Made by a program: the position numbers and the translations under genes. Of a stretch of DNA of 23,654 nt, positions 2,075-23,396 are shown piece by piece. The notes under the pieces were generated by a model. That model searched no databases. It saw only the letters and a list, made by a program, of their open reading frames with translations, and was not told the origin of the DNA. The number at the start of each line of letters is the position of its first letter. Position 1 is the stretch's first letter. The stretch comes from a virus: the IMG/VR virus record IMGVR_UViG_3300021185_002226, positions 1 to 23,654 of that record; one strand, 5' to 3'.

Positions 2075-2493
2075 TATTCTGGTGGATTATTATGACCCAT
2101 CATCGTATCGGGTTCCCAGTTTGATATTGCTTGTCTTATTGCATCTTCAGCTAATACAGAACAATGCAATTTGATTGGAGGTAATTGTAAAGCTTTTGCT
2201 ATATCTTTATCTTTAATAGCTTGTGCTTCTTCTATTGTTTTACCTTTTAGCATTTCTACGAAAAGAGTTGATGATGCTATTGCTGAACCACAGCCGTATG
2301 TTTTAAACTTAACATCTTCTATTACATTACCTTTCATTTTTAAATCTAGTTTCATTACATCACCACACGCTGGAGCACCAACCATACCTGTGATTACTGT
2401 TTTATCATTAGGGTCAAATCTTCCAACTGAATGTTTTTCTGGATTTGCTAATACAGATTCGAACCTATCTACTACTTCTTTTGAATATGCCAT
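2074..2493 (-). CDS. iscU: Fe-S cluster assembly scaffold IscU
   Basis: 139 aa from ATG 2493, chosen over an upstream in-frame start at 2541 because family homology begins at MAYSKEVVDRFE and this ATG sits in a TAATG junction with the preceding curlin-like gene. It carries the three scaffold cysteines C43 (APACGD), C68 (YGCGSA) and C111 (LHC), the conserved D45, and an LPPIK motif (105-109) matching the HscA-chaperone recognition motif LPPVK of bacterial IscU. It should therefore assemble 2Fe-2S clusters with host IscS and be serviced by host HscA/HscB. It is oddly placed between a secreted curlin-like protein and an A-type carrier in what looks like a late-transcribed phage operon. Confidence 0.95.
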   Translation of the reverse strand: MAYSKEVVDRFESVLANPEKHSVGRFDPNDKTVITGMVGAPACGDVMKLDLKMKGNVIEDVKFKTYGCGSAIASSTLFVEMLKGKTIEEAQAIKDKDIAKALQLPPIKLHCSVLAEDAIRQAISNWEPDTMMGHNNPPE

Positions 2494-3209
2494 TAGTTTC
2501 CTTGTGTTACTGAAACTGTACATCCGCCTACGGTAAAGCAATTTTGAGTTAAACTATAAGTTTGATTTGTTCCACCTTGTTGAGTAAGATTTAAAGTTGT
2601 TGGTTGATTACCTTGTAATCTTATTTGTGAATTATGAGAACCAGTACCTGATTGAACAATTGTTGTTTCTGATGTAGAAGTACTTCCATAAAAATATGTA
2701 TGGTTATAATGACTTCCTGTTCCTGATTGATTTATATCATGTACAACATCACTCGCATGAATATCTAAATTATGTGTATGTGTTCCACTTTGATATACAT
2801 CAACATCATTATTATTTCCTAATATATGTCGACCATACGTTGCACCGTTATATTGTCGTACATATTCATTATTATTATAACCATCTACATCACCACCCCA
2901 AGCTTTTCCTGAGCCCCAATATGAAACCCATGAAATGGAATTACCATTTCCTGATTGTAAAAAATCAAATGTATTATTTTGATGTGCAAATGAAAAATTA
3001 ATTTCATTACCAAATCCTATTTGTGTGATATTAATGTTTGCATTATCGCCACTTGCTACTTGTTCAACATGAACATGATTATCATCACTAGGACCTGCAT
3101 ATATTGGCATAGCTAAAAGAAAACATGCACCCCAAGGTAATATCCAATATTTATAAAATTTATCTTTAATTCGTTTGATTAATGTATATTTCAATTCCAT
3201 CTCCGTCAT
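2493..3209 (-). CDS. Secreted curlin-like repeat protein (second of two)
   Basis: 238 aa. A basic N-terminus (KRIKDKFYK) leads into a hydrophobic core ending in AMPIYAG, consistent with a signal peptide cleaved near residue 38. The mature part is rich in Asn, Gln, Gly, Ser, His and Tyr, with curlin-type Q-x-G strands at Q63 (QIGFGN), Q85 (QSGNGN), Q140, Q161, Q186 and Q210; most are 21-25 residues apart, like the CsgA/CsgB repeat. A cysteine pair, C224 and C230, lies near the C-terminus, and the protein ends in TQGN. The start overlaps the FecR-domain gene by 35-44 bases; M4 (3200) is next to a GGAG and may be the true start. Likely an amyloid fibre or adhesin subunit exported by the neighbouring CsgG/CsgF. 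Whether it is the major subunit or nucleator is unknown. Confidence 0.8.
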   Translation of the reverse strand: MTEMELKYTLIKRIKDKFYKYWILPWGACFLLAMPIYAGPSDDNHVHVEQVASGDNANINITQIGFGNEINFSFAHQNNTFDFLQSGNGNSISWVSYWGSGKAWGGDVDGYNNNEYVRQYNGATYGRHILGNNNDVDVYQSGTHTHNLDIHASDVVHDINQSGTGSHYNHTYFYGSTSTSETTIVQSGTGSHNSQIRLQGNQPTTLNLTQQGGTNQTYSLTQNCFTVGGCTVSVTQGN

Positions 3210-4317
3210 TAAATTGCATTACACCTTCGTAATCGTTAGTGACAACATCTATAAATCCACTGCCACCAGCTCCTATTATTATATTTATAACTCCATTTAC
3301 GCTACGAAAGAAAACTAAATTACCATCTTGTTCAAAAACATTAAATTGTGAATCCTTATTGAATCCTACTGCTGCACCTTTCAGTGTAAATCCACTTAGA
3401 TTTCCACCACCTTGAGCATCTCCTAATGATACCTTTGTTTTTTCCAAAGCTTCTATAACATCTAGTAAGTCCTTCAGAAAATCCACATCTAATAAATCAA
3501 TATCCAATTCAGAAAATTCTAAATCCTCTTCTGTATCAGCCAATGCGTCTGATTCCAATTCATTAAACTCTAAAAAATCTACATCTAGCATTCCACTATC
3601 TTGGTCCTGTTCATCAGCTGCGGCATCTTCAATTGCCTGTTTTACCTCAGTTGGTGGATTAACAATAAACATGTTATCAATTAAATTAGGTGTAATACCA
3701 TTAATTGTGACCGGACTTGTAGGAGAAGTATCCGTTGTGCTGACCATTGTTGCCTGGTAAGCTTCTGTTAATATAACTGTTCCACCTAAATTTGATACAC
3801 TTATTTCTCCAGATGGTAAGCCATTTTCATCTGGTAGCAATACGATTAAACTTCTTCCTAATTCATCTATCGTTGTTGTAAAATCTGTTCCTCTAATACC
3901 AATCGTGGCAGTAGGTGTTTGTATATCTATATTTGCTTTATTTACTAAACCAAGAGAACCTGAAGCAAATCTTGCTGTTCCCATAGTAAATTTCATTGAC
4001 ATTTTGGATAATGATGGGTCAGGGTCATAATATATTTCGTCTATTAAAACCTCTGAATGTTCCTTTAGTGATAATTGAGCCTTATCCAAAAACTCAATTA
4101 GCATACTACCTGCTGCTGTTTCAGCCACATCGTTTAGTTCAATAGGAAGGAATGCACCTGTTACTACAATATCTTCTTGTTGGCGTACTATTTTGCCTAC
4201 GCCTGTGGATTCCACAATATCACCAATGGAGTCTGCATAAACAGACCCCACTAGTAATAAACTACTAACTATCGTTAGCTGCGTCTTTTTGATTAATTTG
4301 AATGACACTATTATCAC
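3166..4317 (-). CDS. Secreted FecR-domain protein with an acidic repeat segment
   Basis: 383 aa with a signal peptide (hydrophobic 13-28, cleavage near VYA-D). A FecR domain covers roughly residues 45-190, with the hallmark TPTATIGIRGTDF at about 134-146. Residues 225-291 are strongly acidic and contain the repeated motif LDVDFL (244-249 and 276-281), followed by a Gly-rich segment and a beta-strand-rich C-terminal part. The best start appears to be GTG at 4317 or 4308; no ATG is available, and the start lies inside the preceding curlin-like gene (overlap up to 53 bases). FecR domains outside the classical sigma/anti-sigma setting occur in secreted or periplasmic proteins paired with CHASE2 cyclases, as is the case here. 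A role as ligand or cell-surface partner for the cyclase, or as an accessory to the curli fibre, is inference. Confidence 0.82.
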   Translation of the reverse strand: MIIVSFKLIKKTQLTIVSSLLLVGSVYADSIGDIVESTGVGKIVRQQEDIVVTGAFLPIELNDVAETAAGSMLIEFLDKAQLSLKEHSEVLIDEIYYDPDPSLSKMSMKFTMGTARFASGSLGLVNKANIDIQTPTATIGIRGTDFTTTIDELGRSLIVLLPDENGLPSGEISVSNLGGTVILTEAYQATMVSTTDTSPTSPVTINGITPNLIDNMFIVNPPTEVKQAIEDAAADEQDQDSGMLDVDFLEFNELESDALADTEEDLEFSELDIDLLDVDFLKDLLDVIEALEKTKVSLGDAQGGGNLSGFTLKGAAVGFNKDSQFNVFEQDGNLVFFRSVNGVINIIIGAGGSGFIDVVTNDYEGVMQFNDGDGIEIYINQTN

Positions 4318-4993
4318 TTGTAATGTCTAATGTTATAATAGCATTCGGTGTAGCACAACCGCCACCAGAAGCTGCGCATGTTCCTGATATTTGATTGATG
4401 TCTACATCGGCACTATCACCATTTAATTCAACAGTCATTTCATTTGCACCATCTTTTTGCAAAGTGTTAATGTTATTTGAAGCACCGGTTATATCCCAGT
4501 TCCAAACTACATCATCACTTTCCCAATCGATGTCAAATACATTCGAACTACCAATGAGTACTAAATCGGCGTTTAAACGTTCTGCACTAAATGCTGTACC
4601 CTGGTCTAAGTCAAAAGTATTGCTTGAACCAGTAACATTAAAGTTTATATCAGAATCATCTGAACTGCCTGTACTACCAACACTCCAATCTATTATATTT
4701 GAACTTCCAGTAAAATCAAGCTTATAGTCTGAACTATCAGCTGTGACTGGACCAAATAAAATATTTGAATTGCCAGTGAAATCTAAATCAAATTCAAGTG
4801 TTGCACCAGTTATTAACATTGCAGTTCCAGAAGATTGAAAATTATTACCTCCAATCTTATTACCAAAACCTTCTTGGTCAATGTATAATTTTAGTGTATC
4901 ACCAACTTGAGTCATTATGATTTCGTTATCATCGGTATCGGCGAAAATGGTTGTTGTCGACAATAATAAAATTAAACTAATTAGTTTCTTCAT
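4265..4993 (-). CDS. Secreted curlin-like repeat protein (first of two, Asp/Ser-rich)
   Basis: 242 aa. Classic signal peptide MKKLISLILLLSTTTIFA followed by an acidic mature part. One canonical curlin-like strand occurs early (DQEGFGN, 39-45), then five related strands of the form hydrophobic-TG-(S/A/N)SN: FTGNSN 72, FTGSSN 94, VTGSSN 120, IGSSN 147 and ITGASN 168, spaced 22-26 residues, followed by NQIS (200) and INQKD (233). This periodicity suggests a beta-solenoid with curlin-length rungs, but with Asp/Ser in place of most Gln/Asn. A cysteine pair, C206 and C213, lies near the C-terminus, as in the downstream curlin-like protein. It directly follows csgG (17-base overlap), so it is probably a CsgG export substrate, fibre subunit or nucleator. 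Its divergence from CsgA/CsgB makes the exact role uncertain. Confidence 0.75.
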   Translation of the reverse strand: MKKLISLILLLSTTTIFADTDDNEIIMTQVGDTLKLYIDQEGFGNKIGGNNFQSSGTAMLITGATLEFDLDFTGNSNILFGPVTADSSDYKLDFTGSSNIIDWSVGSTGSSDDSDINFNVTGSSNTFDLDQGTAFSAERLNADLVLIGSSNVFDIDWESDDVVWNWDITGASNNINTLQKDGANEMTVELNGDSADVDINQISGTCAASGGGCATPNAIITLDITSDNSVIQINQKDAANDS

Positions 4994-5915
4994 TTTCGTT
5001 ATACCCCTCTATTTTCCAATAGCCACGTCTGTGGCCTTGGTATATTAATTCCAACACGGCTGCTTCGATGGCAGACCTTGTTGCATAAGTCACACTCTCA
5101 TTATTAGTCGCTCCGTCCTCGTATTCTACAAGCTCTGTACCCATTTCAATAAACCTGAATATATCGCCTGATTTACCATAGCTTAATATGGTTTTACGAG
5201 TTTGGACATTAAGTAAAACCTCTCCAGTAAGAACCGATACGGCTCTCATTGAAACGGTCACAACATCTTGACGATATTGCTTTGTGTACCCAATACCAAG
5301 ATAACGAGCTCCTCGCCCACCAGTCTTAATATTGGTATCATAACCAATAACACCACCTTCGATAATCATACCAGCGAAGAGTAGTGAATTCAATTCCTGA
5401 AACTTTTCTTGACCCTCTCGTTTAGCAAAATCTTGTCTTGCTGAACGAATAATTTGTCTTTCCCTTACCAAGTGGTCAAGGCCATTTCTTTCAACAACCC
5501 TAAACCATTTACCTTGACCTGCAGTTTTTAATGCATCGATTACTAATTCAACTCCACCTTGTGATATGGCAGTAGAAAAATCAGCAATGTTTTCCTTTGG
5601 TTTTCTTTGACCTGTTTTATCTGCAAATGTATATACAGCAACAACTGGCATTTCTTCGGCGGGTGGTAAATCTAATAATTCTATAAAGGAAGGTAAATTT
5701 ACAACCTCTGGGTCCTCTACACAAATAAATGGTAATGCTCTTTCAAAAGTCCTACCAGATGCTTTTGCATAATTCCATAGGTCGTGGTCATACTGCTCAC
5801 CCCAAGTATCTTTATTACAATCTTGTGGTAATTCAGTATATCGTGGCGACATTGCACAGCCACTTATTAGTAATAAAAATGCTAGACTAGCCGCCGTCGC
5901 TCGTGCCATCACCAT
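4977..5915 (-). CDS. csgG: Curli secretion channel lipoprotein CsgG
   Basis: 312 aa from ATG 5915 (an ATG at 5921 also exists, but lies only two bases from the GGAGG; 5915 has good spacing). Outer-membrane lipoprotein: signal with lipobox LISGC, lipidated Cys at residue 20 from this start. It is collinear with E. coli CsgG across the channel domain: PVVAVYTFADKTGQRKP, then FSTAI, RQIIRSARQ, IIEGGVIGYDTN, GGRGARYLGIG, QYRQDVVTVSMRAVSVLTGE and KTILSYG. It should form the ring-shaped peptide-diffusion pore that exports curlin subunits. The constriction loop is altered: the Phe before STA is kept, the preceding Asn of E. coli is Asp here, the loop has an extra residue, and the eyelet Tyr is not conserved. 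Also, about 40 more residues than E. coli lie between the lipobox and the channel domain. Overlaps csgF upstream. Confidence 0.95.
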   Translation of the reverse strand: MVMARATAASLAFLLLISGCAMSPRYTELPQDCNKDTWGEQYDHDLWNYAKASGRTFERALPFICVEDPEVVNLPSFIELLDLPPAEEMPVVAVYTFADKTGQRKPKENIADFSTAISQGGVELVIDALKTAGQGKWFRVVERNGLDHLVRERQIIRSARQDFAKREGQEKFQELNSLLFAGMIIEGGVIGYDTNIKTGGRGARYLGIGYTKQYRQDVVTVSMRAVSVLTGEVLLNVQTRKTILSYGKSGDIFRFIEMGTELVEYEDGATNNESVTYATRSAIEAAVLELIYQGHRRGYWKIEGYNENEETN

Positions 5916-6426
5916 CAACATCTCCTCCGAAATATCCTGAACCTATTGGTATTTCAATAATGGTAGATGTTCCATTCTCATCGACTATGGTCATTTTAAT
6001 ATATTCTGAACCATCAGCATTTGTTAAAACTTCATATGTCACAGTTGAGCCTTCTAAAACAAAGGAACCAAAGCGTACAGGGTTATCATTTGAAAACATA
6101 CTCTCGACCAGCTGTTTGGCCATCTGAGCATATATTCTACTTTCTAAATTTCGTATAAATTTTGCGAGGGTGGTATTATCTTCAGCTCTTTCGGCAGCCT
6201 TTCTTGCTGATTCAAGTGCTTCTTCTATTGCTTTCTTACGAGAGAATTCTTGGTTTTCAATGGTCAGATAATGTGCACCAGTACCTTGTCCACTGAAGGA
6301 TGGATTTTTAAATTTATGAGTTATTTCTTGTGAATTAATATTAGGAGCTAAAGCAAGGATTGATACCATAAAGATACCAACTAAAAATCCTAGTTCAATC
6401 TTATCTCTATTGTTTCTTTTTTTCAT
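5887..6426 (-). CDS. csgF: Curli assembly factor CsgF
   Basis: 179 aa. The N-terminal hydrophobic segment (11-28) serves as an export signal. The mature start carries HKFKNPSFSGQGTGAHYL (37-54), matching the CsgF FQFRNPNFGG region that plugs the CsgG barrel at the cell surface. A helical middle (65-110) is followed by strands with YEVLTNADGSEYIKMTI and GTSTIIEIPI, matching the C-terminal CsgF sheet. In E. coli CsgF couples CsgG secretion to nucleation of the fibre by CsgB. Unlike the usual ~138-aa CsgF, this one ends in an extra Asp/Gly tail (FGGDVDGDGTSDGG) that looks like a calcium-binding DxDGDG loop. The gene precedes and overlaps csgG, so the two should be made in a fixed ratio. Confidence 0.92.
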   Translation of the reverse strand: MKKRNNRDKIELGFLVGIFMVSILALAPNINSQEITHKFKNPSFSGQGTGAHYLTIENQEFSRKKAIEEALESARKAAERAEDNTTLAKFIRNLESRIYAQMAKQLVESMFSNDNPVRFGSFVLEGSTVTYEVLTNADGSEYIKMTIVDENGTSTIIEIPIGSGYFGGDVDGDGTSDGG

Positions 6427-18223: not shown

Positions 18224-18252
18224 ATTATATCATACTTTTACTGCTTTGTAAA
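18224..18252 (-). promoter_or_regulatory. Sigma70-type early promoter for the rnh block
   Basis: -35 TTTACA (18247-18252), 17-base spacer, -10 TATAAT (18224-18229), then ATACCTATT directly before the ATG at 18214. The -35 lies within the 3' end of the GIY-YIG gene. Predicted leader is about three bases. Confidence 0.85.
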
Positions 18253-18684
18253 CATGTTTTTAACACTATTTGCTCCTATTCTACAGTTGATTATACCGTT
18301 ATAATAATCATCGCTTAATAGTACTTCTCGTTCGAATTGCTCTTTTGTTTCCATATATGCACATTCCCCTTTGGTTTTACATATATGTAGGATTTCCCTA
18401 TGATAAAAATCCTCGCCGTGTTGTTTAACTTCTTCTATTAAATACTTATTGGAACCATAATATGTTCTCCAATCAGATTCAACATAGGTTATTTTTCTGC
18501 GTTTTCTTTTTTTAGTTATAGGAAGTGTTTTCTTTGACCAAAAGAATTTTTTACCAATATACTTTTTATTTGTTCCTCTATGGGTAATGCAATAAACAAA
18601 ACCATACCAATGCGAACCATATTTTTCATATGTAAAAGGTTCGTCTGGTGTAAATGCAATACCTTGATATATCCAGTTATTCAT
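18238..18684 (-). CDS. SegE-like GIY-YIG nuclease family protein
   Basis: 148 aa. GIY-YIG elements: YGFVYCITHRGTNKKYIGKK (27-46) contains the GFVY and YIG strands, R73 in SDWRTYYGSN is the likely catalytic Arg, and E112 in CAYMETKEQFE is the likely metal-binding Glu. A lysine-rich loop (50-65) intervenes. This resembles the SegE-type GIY-YIG proteins of T4-like phages. It may be a homing-type nuclease or a domesticated one; it has no intron nearby and is embedded in the operon by an eight-base overlap, favouring a fixed phage function. Last gene of the nrdA operon. Confidence 0.78.
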   Translation of the reverse strand: MNNWIYQGIAFTPDEPFTYEKYGSHWYGFVYCITHRGTNKKYIGKKFFWSKKTLPITKKRKRRKITYVESDWRTYYGSNKYLIEEVKQHGEDFYHREILHICKTKGECAYMETKEQFEREVLLSDDYYNGIINCRIGANSVKNMFTKQ

Positions 18685-18814
18685 TAAAATTTAATTCGTC
18701 CATATCATCATCTGTGGGTTCGCCACAATGAGGACAGAAGTTTACCTTAACTGGTTCATCATCTGCTGGTTTGATTACTATACGAGAGTAACAATATTGG
18801 CAGTCTAAAATCAT
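18677..18814 (-). CDS. 45-aa zinc-ribbon protein
   Basis: Short gene with ATGA overlap to glutaredoxin (start 18814) and eight-base overlap to the GIY-YIG gene. Two CxxC knuckles, C5-QY-C8 and C27-PH-C30, separated by 18 residues, followed by an acidic tail (TDDDMDELNFNE). Typical rubredoxin-like or zinc-ribbon layout; likely binds zinc and a nucleic acid or protein partner. Function unknown. Confidence 0.78.
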   Translation of the reverse strand: MILDCQYCYSRIVIKPADDEPVKVNFCPHCGEPTDDDMDELNFNE

Positions 18815-19038
18815 AACTCTATGCTAGTTAACTCTTTTAGTTCTGTATATCCACCAATTTTTTGACCATCAACAATGATTTGTGGAAATGTTCTTGCTCC
18901 TGGAAATTTTTCCATTAACTCTTCCCTTGTAAAATCAAAGCCTAATAGTTTATATTCATAATCCATTTTCTTTTGTTCGCATAAAGCTTTTGCCATATCG
19001 CAATATGGACAATTATCCTTTCCATATATCTCTATCAT
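18811..19038 (-). CDS. grx: Glutaredoxin
   Basis: 75 aa, a minimal glutaredoxin. Active site C10-P-Y-C13, cis-Pro motif TFPQI (50-54) and GGYTEL (62-67) for glutathione binding. In T4-like phages such a protein (NrdC equivalent) reduces the ribonucleotide reductase active-site disulfide, and here it shares the nrdA-nrdB operon, consistent with that role. It follows the cytochrome c gene with a four-base ATGA overlap. Confidence 0.95.
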   Translation of the reverse strand: MIEIYGKDNCPYCDMAKALCEQKKMDYEYKLLGFDFTREELMEKFPGARTFPQIIVDGQKIGGYTELKELTSIEL

Positions 19039-19478
19039 TTCATTGTCTCCTCAATAAATTTCCCTATAGTATCTATATCACTATCTGTTAACATACCTGC
19101 TTGAGCCCACATTGTTGAACTCATAGGACCTACTTGTTCTTTGTTTTTATATGCATATAATCTTTGAGATATATACGCTGAATCTCTTCCTGCAAGAGCG
19201 GGGAATACGGCCATACCCTGTCCCTCGTTACCATGGCAAGCGGCACAACCGGCCCAAAGTCCTTTAATGGAACTGAATGGGTCTGTTTCAGCGAGAGCCT
19301 TTTTTCTTTGTTCAATTTCAGATGGCGTACCATTGATTTTAACATATTCTTCATAACATTCTCCCGTACATGAGTGACCTCCGCCAACTCCACTATATTC
19401 TAAATTTGGATATACTTTAGCAACAAAAAATAATCCTATTGCTAAACAACCTAATAAACTCATTCCTAATTCTTTCAT
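19035..19478 (-). CDS. Membrane-anchored class I cytochrome c
   Basis: 147 aa. N-terminal hydrophobic segment (6-22) acts as signal or membrane anchor. Haem motif C78-A-A-C81-H82 within LWAGCAACHGNEGQG, then FPALAGRDSAYISQRL and KNKEQVGPMSSTMW, where M119 is the probable axial Met (M123 an alternative); this is the soluble c553/c5-like pattern of respiratory chains. A segment of about 50 residues before the haem motif holds a second cysteine pair, C37 and C41 (SCTGEC). The mature part lies in the periplasm, where host Ccm machinery attaches haem. Very unusual inside a phage ribonucleotide reductase operon, coupled by overlaps to two 55-aa membrane proteins and to glutaredoxin. It probably shuttles electrons in the host chain during infection; the partner is unknown. 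Confidence 0.93.
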   Translation of the reverse strand: MKELGMSLLGCLAIGLFFVAKVYPNLEYSGVGGGHSCTGECYEEYVKINGTPSEIEQRKKALAETDPFSSIKGLWAGCAACHGNEGQGMAVFPALAGRDSAYISQRLYAYKNKEQVGPMSSTMWAQAGMLTDSDIDTIGKFIEETMK

Positions 19479-19642
19479 ACAAAATTTCCTATTAAATAAA
19501 ATGATAATAACATAAAACCAAATACTAATACTTGCACTACTGACATTACAGCAACTTGTTTCATTGGATGTACATCATGTATCTTTTCTACCCAAGATTC
19601 ACTTGGTGCTAAATTAACTACTTGTAAAACTTTCTTTTCCAT
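19475..19642 (-). CDS. 55-aa membrane protein next to cytochrome c
   Basis: ATG 19642 (TAATG with the previous gene), TGA overlapping the cytochrome c ATG (ATGA). Polar N-terminal half (NLAPSESWVEKIHDVHPMKQ) then one membrane helix VLVFGFMLLSFYLIGNFV to the C-terminus. The order membrane peptide, membrane peptide, cytochrome c suggests a small complex. No family recognised. Not found by length filters, but the tight coupling on both sides is strong support. Confidence 0.75.
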   Translation of the reverse strand: MEKKVLQVVNLAPSESWVEKIHDVHPMKQVAVMSVVQVLVFGFMLLSFYLIGNFV

Positions 19643-19809
19643 TATACTAAATGTTTTTCTCTATCTTTAGTTGCTGTATATACAGTCCCAGTTTTACGAC
19701 CATAATATGGTTTCTTTTCAATTCCTTTTGTTCCTTCGCTTTTGAATAATAATAATATTATACAAAATATACTTATAACAATTCCAAATGTTAATATTGC
19801 TGCTTCCAT
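19642..19809 (-). CDS. 55-aa membrane protein after nrdB
   Basis: ATG 19809 overlaps the nrdB stop (TAATG), TAA overlaps the next ATG. An N-terminal membrane helix (AAILTFGIVISIFCIILLLF) is followed by a basic cytoplasmic tail (EGTKGIEKKPYYGRKTG, YTATKDREKHLV). The layout of one helix and a short polar tail recalls small accessory subunits of respiratory oxidases such as CcoQ, but the similarity is only in layout. Function unknown; likely works with the neighbouring cytochrome c. Confidence 0.75.
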   Translation of the reverse strand: MEAAILTFGIVISIFCIILLLFKSEGTKGIEKKPYYGRKTGTVYTATKDREKHLV

Positions 19810-20882
19810 TATAAACTTAACCCCGATAGTGTTTTATCATCAACATCTTGTTTTACTCCACCAGTTACATAAGATGTGATTTCTGTTTCTTGTGGAGCGA
19901 CTTGTACATTTCCTCCACCAATCCATTTTTCAGTCCATGGTAAAGGATTCATTTGAGGAACAGTATAAGGACATGTTAATCCTACTGCTCTCATTCTTTT
20001 ACAACCAATCCATTCGATATATTGTTTTAATATGGTTTCATTTAATCCAATCATTGAACCATCTTTGAATAAATATGAAGCCCATTCTTTTTCTTGTTCG
20101 ATTACATTAACAAATAATTTTGTGGCGTCTTCTTGTTCTTCTTTTGCTATTTTGGCCATCTGAGGGTCTTCTTCCAATAACCTTTTAATCATTACTGTTG
20201 TACCGGCCAAATGTGTATTTTCATCTCTTGCAATAAATTTAATTATTTTTGCATTACCTTCCATTTTCTTTAATTCAGCAAATGCCCAAGAACATGCAAA
20301 TGAAACATAAAACCTAATTCCTTCTAATGCATTTGCACTCATTAAACACATATATAAGGACCTTTTATGTTCTCTTTTATTTGTAGCATAATTATTATTT
20401 TGTATTAAATCATCGTAATATTTTCCAATCTCATTACCACATTCGACAATTTCTTTTACATCTAGCATCTTATCAAAGACTACACCAGGGTCTGAATATA
20501 TGTTCCTAATAATATGAGTATAAGAACGAGAATGAATCGTCTCAAAAAAAGACCATGTTTCAATCCAGTTTTCAACCTCGGGTAACGAACATATAGGAAG
20601 GAAAGCAAGGTTCGGGGCCCGACCTTGAACAGAGTCCAATAATATTTGACGTTTGAGGTTCGATGTGAAGATGTGTTGTTCGTGCGTCGTAAGCTCATGG
20701 AAATCCTTTTTATCTTTAGAAACATCTACTTCCTCTGGTCTCCAAAAGAATCCTAGTTGCTTTTCTGTTATTTTATCTATCTGTGGATATTTTAATTGGT
20801 CGTATCTTGCTACATCTACACCCTCATCAAAAAACATATTCTTTTTTAGATGTGATTTTTTATTTTTCTTTAGTACTGACAT
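19809..20882 (-). CDS. nrdB: Class Ia ribonucleotide reductase, beta subunit
   Basis: 357 aa, collinear with E. coli NrdB. Di-iron ligands and radical site visible: D83 (LLDSVQGR), E114 and H117 (ETIHSRSY), tyrosyl radical Y121, then ALEGIRFYVSFACSWAF with a Glu ligand, and ARDENTHLAGT with Glu and His. Residues VQVAPQETEITSY and the C-terminal DDKTLSGLSL, the tail that docks on NrdA, are present. Generates and holds the radical needed for deoxynucleotide production. Its start overlaps the 79-aa gene by 23 bases. The di-iron centre and the phage Fe-S genes at the other end may both reflect iron demand in infection, which is inference. Confidence 0.97.
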   Translation of the reverse strand: MSVLKKNKKSHLKKNMFFDEGVDVARYDQLKYPQIDKITEKQLGFFWRPEEVDVSKDKKDFHELTTHEQHIFTSNLKRQILLDSVQGRAPNLAFLPICSLPEVENWIETWSFFETIHSRSYTHIIRNIYSDPGVVFDKMLDVKEIVECGNEIGKYYDDLIQNNNYATNKREHKRSLYMCLMSANALEGIRFYVSFACSWAFAELKKMEGNAKIIKFIARDENTHLAGTTVMIKRLLEEDPQMAKIAKEEQEDATKLFVNVIEQEKEWASYLFKDGSMIGLNETILKQYIEWIGCKRMRAVGLTCPYTVPQMNPLPWTEKWIGGGNVQVAPQETEITSYVTGGVKQDVDDKTLSGLSL

Positions 20883-21099
20883 TAGGCTTTGGCCTCCATG
20901 ATATTGTTGATTTAGTTTCTATTGCGTCTTGCGCACACTGTATATATTCTTTATCTTCTTCTGAGAGTACTGACCAAAATTTACTTATTGTTAAGGTATG
21001 GTCATACACAACCTCAGGCTTTTTCATATGATAATCCTGTTCCATCCAACTTTGTAAGATGTCCATTCTTTGATTTATCTTATCTGTTAAATTTTGCAT
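20860..21099 (-). CDS. Small conserved protein between nrdA and nrdB
   Basis: 79 aa, soluble and helical at the N-terminus (TDKINQRMDILQSWMEQDYH), then HTLTISKFWSVLSEEDKEYIQCAQDAIE (two parts) and a basic end. Overlaps the nrdA 3' end by 13 bases and the nrdB start by 23. No family recognised. Position suggests a partner or regulator of the reductase. Confidence 0.78.
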   Translation of the reverse strand: MQNLTDKINQRMDILQSWMEQDYHMKKPEVVYDHTLTISKFWSVLSEEDKEYIQCAQDAIETKSTISWRPKPNVSTKEK

Positions 21100-23396
21100 G
21101 AATCGCAGTCGTCATCCTCCTCTATTTGTTGTTCCGTTCCTGTATAATATGTATGATGGTCATCTTCCTTCATTTCTCCTGCACCATCGTATGTGTTGAA
21201 ATAATATAATTGTTTTAAACCATACTTATATGCTGTAACAAGGTCAGAGAGCATCGCAGACATAGGTACCTTATGGTCCTCGTAATGTTCTGGATTATAT
21301 GATGTATTAACTGATATACCTTGGTCAATATATTTTTGCAATATACCACAAATCGCAAGGTATCCCTCTGGGGATTTTTGGTCCCACAGTAAATCATATT
21401 TATTTTTCAGATGATGATAACCAGGTACGACCTGTGCCATCACTCCATCTTTACTCTGTTTGTACGATACCAATGCTCTTGGTGGTTCAATACCATTCGT
21501 ACTGTTACTTATCTGAGCGCTAGTTTCAGCCGGCATTAATGCCATAAGAGTAGAGTTACGAATGCCATTCTCTCTGAGTTGTTTTCTCAACCCTTTCCAA
21601 TCGCACAGTTCTCTATGCTTCGTTAAATTATCTATAGCCTCTTTTTTATAAGTATCGATAGGAACTATTCCTTGTGAATATTTCGTATCATTATTATATA
21701 TCACTTTTCCTTTCTCAATAGCCAAATCTGCAGAGGCTTTTATCAAATAATATGACCATGCTTCTGCGTATTCATCTACTATTTCGTATGCAGATTCATC
21801 ATATTTTAAACCTCGTTTCGCTAGGAAATATGCGAGGTTGATGATTCCCACCCCAAGGGGGCGTCTAGATAATGTACCTTGTTCTGCTGCTGGTATAGGA
21901 TACCCTTGATAATCAAGAAGCTCATCAAGAGCCCTAACACAAAGGTCGCAATATTTTTCAAACTCATTTGTTTCATTTATTAATCCCCAATTTATTGCCG
22001 ACAATGTACATAAAGAGATTTCTCCATCTGTATCATCATGGCTGTTTAATGGACTTGTTGGTAAATCGATTTCACAACAAAGGTTGCTCATTCGGATTGG
22101 TGCTCTTCTTGGATTAAATGCTCCATGCTCATTTGCATGGTCAACATTCATTACATATATCCTACCTGTGTCTTTTCTTTCTGTTAAAAACATCTGAAAC
22201 ACTTCAAGAGCTGGTAATGTTTTTTTCCTTATTGATGTTTTCCTTTCATATGTTTCATATAATTCTTTAAATTTTTCCTGGTCATCAAAGAATGATTCAT
22301 ATAAACCTGGCACATCGTTAGGGTCAAAGAAGGTAATATTACCACCTTGTAATAACCTTTCGTACATTAGTTTATTGAACTGAAACGCATAATCCATGTG
22401 CCTCACTCTTGTTTCCTCAACGCCTTTATTGTTCTTTAATACAACTAGGTCCTCAAATTCATAATGCCATATTGGCAGGTAAACCGTTGCTGCACCGCCT
22501 CTAACGCCGCCTTGTGAACAGCTTTTGACAGCCGATTGGAAATATTTCAAAAATGGTATAAGTCCTGTATGTACTACTGAACCATCTCCTATTTTTGCCC
22601 CTAAGGCTCGAATAGAACCTGCACCTATTCCAATCCCTGCTTTCTTACTTATGTATTTAACGATCGAAGTAGCAGTAGCATTAATACTGTCGAGGCTATC
22701 GCCAGACTCGATAAGTACACAACTAGAAAACTGACGCGTCGGCGTTCTAACTCCTGCCATAATCGGTGTAGGTAATGAGATATAAAATTGACTAGTCGCA
22801 TCATAATAATCCTTTACATATTTTAATCTGTTATCTTTATACTTTGCAAACAAAGTCATGGAAATCATCATATATAAAATCTGAGGTGTTTCATATATTT
22901 TCTTTGTTCGTCTGTCCTGAACTAAATATTTACCTCTGAATTGTTCCATACCTGCATATGTAAATGAATCATCTCTATCATGTTTAATATAAGCATCTAA
23001 TTCACATATTTCATCTTCAGTATATTGTTCTAAAATTTCCTCATCATATACTCCTCGTTCAACATTTGTTTCAATGATTTGTGTAAGAGGTGGAACTTGG
23101 AAGTCGCCATAGGCTTCTTTTCTTAGTTTATAAGATATTAAACGCGCTGCAACAAACTGATAGTTTGGAGTGTGTTCAGATATAAGCTCTGCAGCAGATT
23201 TAATTAATAACTCATGAATATCATAAGCTGGGATTTTATCAAATAATTGTATGTTTGATTTAAGTTCTACCTCGGACATTGATACGCCACTGATACCTTC
23301 TACAGCCCACTCGAGGACTTTATGTACCTTTTCTAGGTCGAACTTTTGTATTGAACCGTCACGCTTGGTGACATTTATAATTGTTGAATTCATCAT
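21087..23396 (-). CDS. nrdA: Class Ia ribonucleotide reductase, alpha subunit
   Basis: 769 aa, close to the 761 aa of E. coli NrdA and similar throughout. N-terminal ATP-cone (VTKRDGSIQKFDLEKVHKVL, 9-28), then PTRQFSSCVLIESGDSLDS with an active-site Cys, AGIGIGAGSIRALG, KSCSQGGVRGGAAT, SNLCCEIDLPT with the thiyl-radical region, CTLSAINWG, NSTLMALMPAETSAQISN, and a C-terminal CDSC pair that is re-reduced by glutaredoxin. Reduces ribonucleoside diphosphates for phage DNA synthesis. Two adjacent ATGs (23396, 23393); the predicted transcript begins about three bases before the first. First gene of the operon that runs to 18238. Confidence 0.98.
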   Translation of the reverse strand: MMNSTIINVTKRDGSIQKFDLEKVHKVLEWAVEGISGVSMSEVELKSNIQLFDKIPAYDIHELLIKSAAELISEHTPNYQFVAARLISYKLRKEAYGDFQVPPLTQIIETNVERGVYDEEILEQYTEDEICELDAYIKHDRDDSFTYAGMEQFRGKYLVQDRRTKKIYETPQILYMMISMTLFAKYKDNRLKYVKDYYDATSQFYISLPTPIMAGVRTPTRQFSSCVLIESGDSLDSINATATSIVKYISKKAGIGIGAGSIRALGAKIGDGSVVHTGLIPFLKYFQSAVKSCSQGGVRGGAATVYLPIWHYEFEDLVVLKNNKGVEETRVRHMDYAFQFNKLMYERLLQGGNITFFDPNDVPGLYESFFDDQEKFKELYETYERKTSIRKKTLPALEVFQMFLTERKDTGRIYVMNVDHANEHGAFNPRRAPIRMSNLCCEIDLPTSPLNSHDDTDGEISLCTLSAINWGLINETNEFEKYCDLCVRALDELLDYQGYPIPAAEQGTLSRRPLGVGIINLAYFLAKRGLKYDESAYEIVDEYAEAWSYYLIKASADLAIEKGKVIYNNDTKYSQGIVPIDTYKKEAIDNLTKHRELCDWKGLRKQLRENGIRNSTLMALMPAETSAQISNSTNGIEPPRALVSYKQSKDGVMAQVVPGYHHLKNKYDLLWDQKSPEGYLAICGILQKYIDQGISVNTSYNPEHYEDHKVPMSAMLSDLVTAYKYGLKQLYYFNTYDGAGEMKEDDHHTYYTGTEQQIEEDDDCDSCKI

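Follow-up and report, generated by a model that had tools for sequence, protein, structure and literature searches.

It is well established that phages control the flow of photosynthetic electrons in cyanobacteria, and cyanophages carry electron-transport genes. To our knowledge, there is little equivalent phage steering of electron flow for the heterotrophs that dominate ocean respiration. Among bacterial electron carriers, the membrane-anchored cytochrome cy of the Rhodobacter type combines an N-terminal membrane helix with one class I haem domain. Respiratory genes have been reported from viromes, including cbb3 oxidase subunit I (PMC3474794) and cydA/coxA (PMC3877843), and haem-precursor genes have been reported in phages (PMC11480375). 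A full-text literature search, with subscription journals mostly outside its coverage, returned no phage cytochrome c carrier, and the cytochrome described here is apparently undescribed as a phage auxiliary gene. It was analyzed in a virus record of 23.7 kb, the whole of which is referred to as the window. Relatives of this putatively tethered phage cytochrome c occur in hundreds of marine virus contigs, mostly beside genes for dNTP synthesis and replication.

A candidate membrane-anchored cytochrome in a phage ribonucleotide reductase operon

Positions 18677-23396 of the window hold a minus-strand run of genes in the order nrdA, a 79-aa ORF, nrdB, TM1, TM2, the cytochrome (cytC), a glutaredoxin (grx) and a 45-aa zinc-ribbon-like gene (Table 1). 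The nrdB/TM1 and TM1/TM2 junctions are both TAATG, and the TM2/cytochrome and cytochrome/grx junctions are both ATGA. A sequence-only reading of this DNA had placed two 55-aa one-helix proteins and a c-type cytochrome, joined by overlaps, between nrdB and the glutaredoxin gene, and this layout proved exact in coordinates and junctions. Because of the overlaps, the genes inserted in this slot, hereafter termed cargo, are likely to be co-transcribed with nrdAB. A gene for a SegE-type GIY-YIG endonuclease lies downstream of the cargo slot (18238-18684) at a position conserved in relatives; the enzyme could assist movement of the adjoining cargo genes.

Table 1 Features of the nrd operon in the window; hydropathy refers to the best 19-residue window
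Feature	Position	Strand	Basis
nrdA, ribonucleotide reductase large subunit, operon head	21087..23396	-	Pfam Ribonuc_red_lgC, E 2e-121
nrdB, class Ia ribonucleotide reductase small subunit, upstream edge of cargo slot	19809..20882	-	Pfam Ribonuc_red_sm, E 2e-46
TM1, 55-aa single-helix protein with basic tail, rarer cargo gene	19642..19809	-	43 viral loci; hydropathy 3.0 at residues 4-22
TM2, 55-aa single-helix protein, widespread cargo gene	19475..19642	-	at least 531 viral stretches; AlphaFold; dN/dS 0.24
Predicted membrane-anchored monohaem c-type cytochrome, 147 aa	19035..19478	-	Pfam PF00034, 36 bits; 71-row alignment; AlphaFold
Glutaredoxin (nrdC-like), downstream edge of cargo slot	18811..19038	-	Pfam Glutaredoxin, E 3e-13
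45-aa zinc-ribbon-like protein, directly after grx	18677..18814	-	weak zinc-ribbon matches; position conserved among relatives

The Pfam family Cytochrom_C (PF00034) matched the cytochrome at 36 bits against a cut-off of 21.3. The protein contains a transmembrane (TM) helix at residues 4-22, a CxxxC pair (C37 and C41), a single CxxCH haem motif (C78-A-A-C81-H82) and an axial Met (M123) that aligned with a Met of 8yts in the PDB comparison. All of C37, C41, C78, C81, H82 and M123 were invariant in the 71 rows of an alignment of distinct, near-full-length sequences with identities down to 48%. The best 19-residue hydropathy window, 2.1 at residues 4-22, indicates that the cytochrome has its own anchor helix, and the AlphaFold model, built without haem (pLDDT 76, moderate pTM of 0.51), contains a helix at residues 2-26. 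The haem domain spans residues 74-144 and is nearest to cytochrome c546/556 of Thioalkalivibrio, c554 of Vibrio, c552 and c4 domains; a fold search with the AlphaFold model likewise matched cytochromes c546/556, c554 and c552. The protein is accordingly annotated here as a predicted monohaem cytochrome c of class I that has a c4/c554-like fold and is anchored in the membrane by its N-terminal helix. The Pfam match, the anchor helix and retention across many viruses uphold the sequence-only reading of a membrane-bound c-type cytochrome in the nrd operon. Its median pairwise dN/dS was 0.22, compared with 0.27 for the glutaredoxin, and the cytochrome is under purifying selection. Given this value and medians of 0.34 for TM1 and 0.24 for TM2, all three are genes and not chance ORFs.

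The CxxxC pair in the linker may form a disulphide or a metal site. An origin from a CuA/COX2 protein (caa3-type oxidase subunit II) was considered and rejected, as CxxxC is followed by YEEYV with no H..M, and the region is helical in the model with no cupredoxin domain. Anchoring as a lipoprotein through LLGC at residues 8-11 was also rejected, since its Cys varies among relatives and hydrophobic residues continue beyond it.

Distribution and genomic settings of the cytochrome

Relatives of the cytochrome were encoded in 492 IMG/VR stretches in a profile-seeded scan and in 244 in a single-sequence scan, and none was detected at E 0.01 among 50,697 phage records. A seeded scan of 84,980 species genomes found the cytochrome in four MAG contigs only, three with the order nrdA-nrdB-(TM1)-cytC-grx and the fourth with nrdA-nrdB-cytC and no grx called beside cytC. 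Because they share the gene order of the viral nrd operon, these look like virus contigs binned into MAGs. Searches with the cytochrome profile in 198 genomes of the G002 phylum and 199 of the G001 phylum recovered the G001 and G002 copies; all other matches were confined to a portion of the profile, usually the haem domain, and did not extend to the anchor helix. Weak bacterial relatives on plasmids adjoin PQQ sugar dehydrogenases. No bacterial source for the cytochrome emerged from the 84,980-genome scan and the two phylum draws, which yielded no full-length bacterial counterpart. Contamination by a bacterial fragment was rejected, as phage genes flank the cytochrome and its family is found again in other contigs.

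The cytochrome occupies at least four genomic settings: the T4-like nrdB-grx slot seen in the window; an nrd operon that is more distantly related, with NrdA about 50% identical; a site between uvsW and a gp55-like gene (named by its position and likeness to the T4 order, and without a Pfam match), upstream of gp47-gp46; and a site after ClpX and a cytidylyltransferase-cupin gene. Further settings exist, for example in contig L066. In three of four distinct ClpX-type contigs, a ferritin-like gene directly follows the cytochrome (L031:6457-6897, and also L075 and L076). The named settings require at least six changes on the cytochrome tree. Between the window and contig L003, cytC was 97.3% identical at the DNA level, compared with 78.9% for nrdA and 79.6% for segE, and this excess over a background of 79-80% indicates recent exchange of cytC in the nrdB-grx slot. 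Each virus record carried one cytochrome c. The cytochrome is a cargo gene that uncultured marine phages, mostly T4-like, carry in several slots and exchange between genomes. It has nrd, uvsW, gp47-like and gp46-like genes as neighbours, is under selection and has cellular relatives in PF00034 and the PDB; we classify it as a putative virus-encoded auxiliary metabolic gene.

The major capsid protein gp23 of two of the longer contigs was nearest to that of phage C48C1, Methylophilales phage Melnitz and Pelagibacter phages HTVC008M and Mosig (60-67% identity). For NrdA and NrdB of the window, the phage records that ranked highest shared about 60% identity. The host may plausibly be a marine proteobacterium. 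Melnitz, HTVC008M and Mosig, the cultured phages closest by capsid protein, are without the cytochrome, which indicates that it is dispensable for such phages.

Several other genes of the window were recorded. A curli-like locus (2493-6426) encodes CsgG, CsgF, a FecR-domain protein and two secreted proteins. Judged by eye, the repeats of the secreted pair are curlin-like, with no Pfam match; the pair might represent the CsgA/CsgB-like fibre genes reported missing from related phages. Adjoining this locus at the contig end (2-1741) is a gene for a CHASE2 sensor and adenylate/guanylate cyclase protein, and in L107 a protein similar to it by eye is encoded upstream of an N-terminally extended TM2 gene. 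Genes for IscU-like (NifU_N) and IscA-like iron-sulphur assembly proteins are adjacent to each other at 1763-2541.

Arrangement of TM1, TM2 and the cytochrome

TM1 carries the motif GTKGI..PYYGRKTG..YTA, and TM2 the motif LQxxNL(S/A)P...HPM(K/R)Q. The best 19-residue hydropathy window of TM2 is 2.4 at residues 30-48, and its AlphaFold model contains helices at 2-10 and 15-54. Neither protein had a match among the phage records or to a named family above the cut-off, a PDB profile search with TM2 gave nothing significant, and neither did a viral fold search. Conservation of the small genes in relatives, on which the sequence-only reading had staked its proposal, was found in viral sequences for both (Table 1), with dN/dS well below one as given above. 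The cytochrome was present at 20 of 53 fetched TM1 loci. TM2 occurs alone in L090-L092, TM1 alone in L164 and L181, and TM2-TM1 without the cytochrome in L138, L152, L155, L160 and L169. Elsewhere, TM2 is found alone in the nrdB-grx gap, in the uvsW-gp55 gap, next to phoH and close to a CHASE2 gene, and TM1 is found alone in nrd operons, in the gp47-gp46 gap and close to a ferredoxin gene. The ferredoxin-like gene is just upstream of TM1 in L178 (4542-4880) and L179 (4533-4868), where no cytochrome was detected.

The sequence-only reading had further proposed that the trio forms a small membrane-bound electron-transfer module. A search of viral contigs revealed a widespread cytochrome, but the exact order nrdB-TM1-TM2-cytC-grx was found only in the window and in L001, which represent the same virus because their genes here are 99-100% identical. 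Uniqueness to one contig, named beforehand as evidence against the proposal, is therefore nearly the case for the cassette and is not the case for the cytochrome. The trio also occurs in the same slot in other orders, as TM2-TM1-cytC (L012 and L021-L023) and TM1-cytC-TM2 (L055). Sampling by NrdB, which is arbitrary as regards cargo, yielded 72 nrdB-grx loci among the matches listed, with cytC in 23, TM2 in 33 and TM1 in none. Both cytC and TM2 were present in 12 of these loci, cytC only in 11, TM2 only in 21 and neither in 28 (Fisher p = 0.61). The corresponding counts in a gp47-drawn sample were 4, 2, 17 and 48 (p = 0.059). Some TM2 assignments are uncertain, because several of the short matches in the samples were incomplete and divergent. 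On the NrdB tree, the slot changed at least seven times for the cytochrome and at least 12 times for TM2, and tree-based independent pairs, which have little power, showed no link between cytC and TM2. The gap between nrdB and grx is a cargo slot with turnover.

A single electron-transfer complex of TM1, TM2 and the cytochrome in the membrane is very unlikely. In the window the three genes overlap, the whole trio reappears in the five contigs with altered order, and TM2 adjoins the cytochrome both in the nrdB-grx slot and in the uvsW-gp55 slot. However, gene order varies, TM1 and TM2 are frequently found without the cytochrome, and the association was significant in neither sample nor seen in the tree-based pairs. 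A conserved three-gene cassette was rejected on the same grounds of order and association; the cassette is a local grouping of cargo genes that are independent of one another. TM1 and TM2 are most likely independent small membrane proteins that share the slot.

Proposed role and comparison with known systems

We consider it moderately probable that the cytochrome is a host-matured, tethered periplasmic electron carrier that sustains respiration during infection. Haem would be attached at the periplasmic face by the export and cytochrome c maturation (Ccm) machinery of the host. The tethered protein would then shuttle electrons to the host terminal oxidase, receiving them from host bc1 or from a dehydrogenase in the periplasm, and would thus replace or supplement the host's own carrier. 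Proton-motive force and ATP could thereby last through phage DNA synthesis, and the position after nrdAB would give co-expression with dNTP synthesis. Among solved structures, its nearest relatives are small carriers of the periplasm; one of them, cytochrome c4, appears in the structure of a bc1-cbb3 supercomplex (8smr). On 15 incomplete virus records with the cytochrome, neither a Ccm-type assembly protein (PF01578) nor oxidase subunit I (PF00115, COX1) was found, so haem attachment and redox partners would come from the host. Several points count against this role: the conserved CxxxC at residues 37-41, which a plain carrier leaves unexplained; the absence of the cytochrome from the nearest cultured phages; the failure of the genome scans to yield a full-length bacterial counterpart that would support orthology to a host carrier; and the moderate, haem-free AlphaFold model.

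Two other roles take up the CxxxC pair. The phage cytochrome might divert or brake electron flow by occupying the docking site of the host oxidase or bc1, or by feeding another acceptor, and so lower respiration or reset redox state. Its membrane tether and invariant extra CxxxC are unlike plain carriers and a glutaredoxin gene adjoins it, but this role seems unlikely to us, as the haem ligands kept in 71 of 71 rows would be needless for a mere blocker and no alternative acceptor is conserved beside the cytochrome across settings. It is quite unlikely that the cytochrome serves in stress, feeding a peroxidase or other detoxifying enzyme or sensing thiol or oxidant state through CxxxC: no peroxidase neighbour was noticed in the nrd or uvsW settings, and the ferritin link, which together with the invariance of C37 and C41 would favour such a role, is limited to one setting. 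A more far-reaching proposal, which we regard as doubtful, is a widespread and so far undescribed cytochrome c family specific to viruses (anchor helix, CxxxC linker and c554-like domain), traded by marine phages among replication-gene slots, that runs or redirects host respiration with CxxxC as a second redox or metal switch site.

The carrier role suggests that uncultured ocean viruses with their own cytochrome c tend the energy supply of the host during infection. One small protein would make viral steering of aerobic respiration in heterotrophic bacteria directly testable.

Among cellular proteins, the cytochrome c4/c554/c552 carriers (PDB 8yts, 2zzs, 1cno, 1h1o and 8smr chain K) share the CxxCH motif and the Met ligand with the phage protein, with profile E-values down to 9e-19 for the haem domain and TM-scores of about 0.7 when normalised on single-domain targets. 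Cytochrome c4 has two haem domains and the phage protein one, and c4 chains matched in two stretches, one per domain. Unlike these carriers, the phage protein adds an N-terminal anchor helix and a linker of about 50 residues with the invariant CxxxC. It resembles cytochrome cy in having an N-terminal membrane helix followed by one haem domain, but Foldseek gave only a weak match (6xkw_p, E 0.25, probability 0.21), the phage linker is short and contains CxxxC, and no bacterial orthologue was found in the genomes scanned.

Among phages, the pelagimyophages and methylophage Melnitz (PMC7029224 and PMC9004378) belong to the same broad T4-like group by gp23 and carry ribonucleotide reductase and csgGF. 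They differ in that relatives of the cytochrome, TM1 and TM2 were not found in phage records, and the word "cytochrome" is absent from the main text of both papers. Like the electron-transport auxiliary genes of marine phages, the cytochrome is phage-borne and would act on host electron transport. The virome reports are virome-level annotations of oxidase subunits, whereas here a putative tethered carrier is described with its gene context and family evidence.
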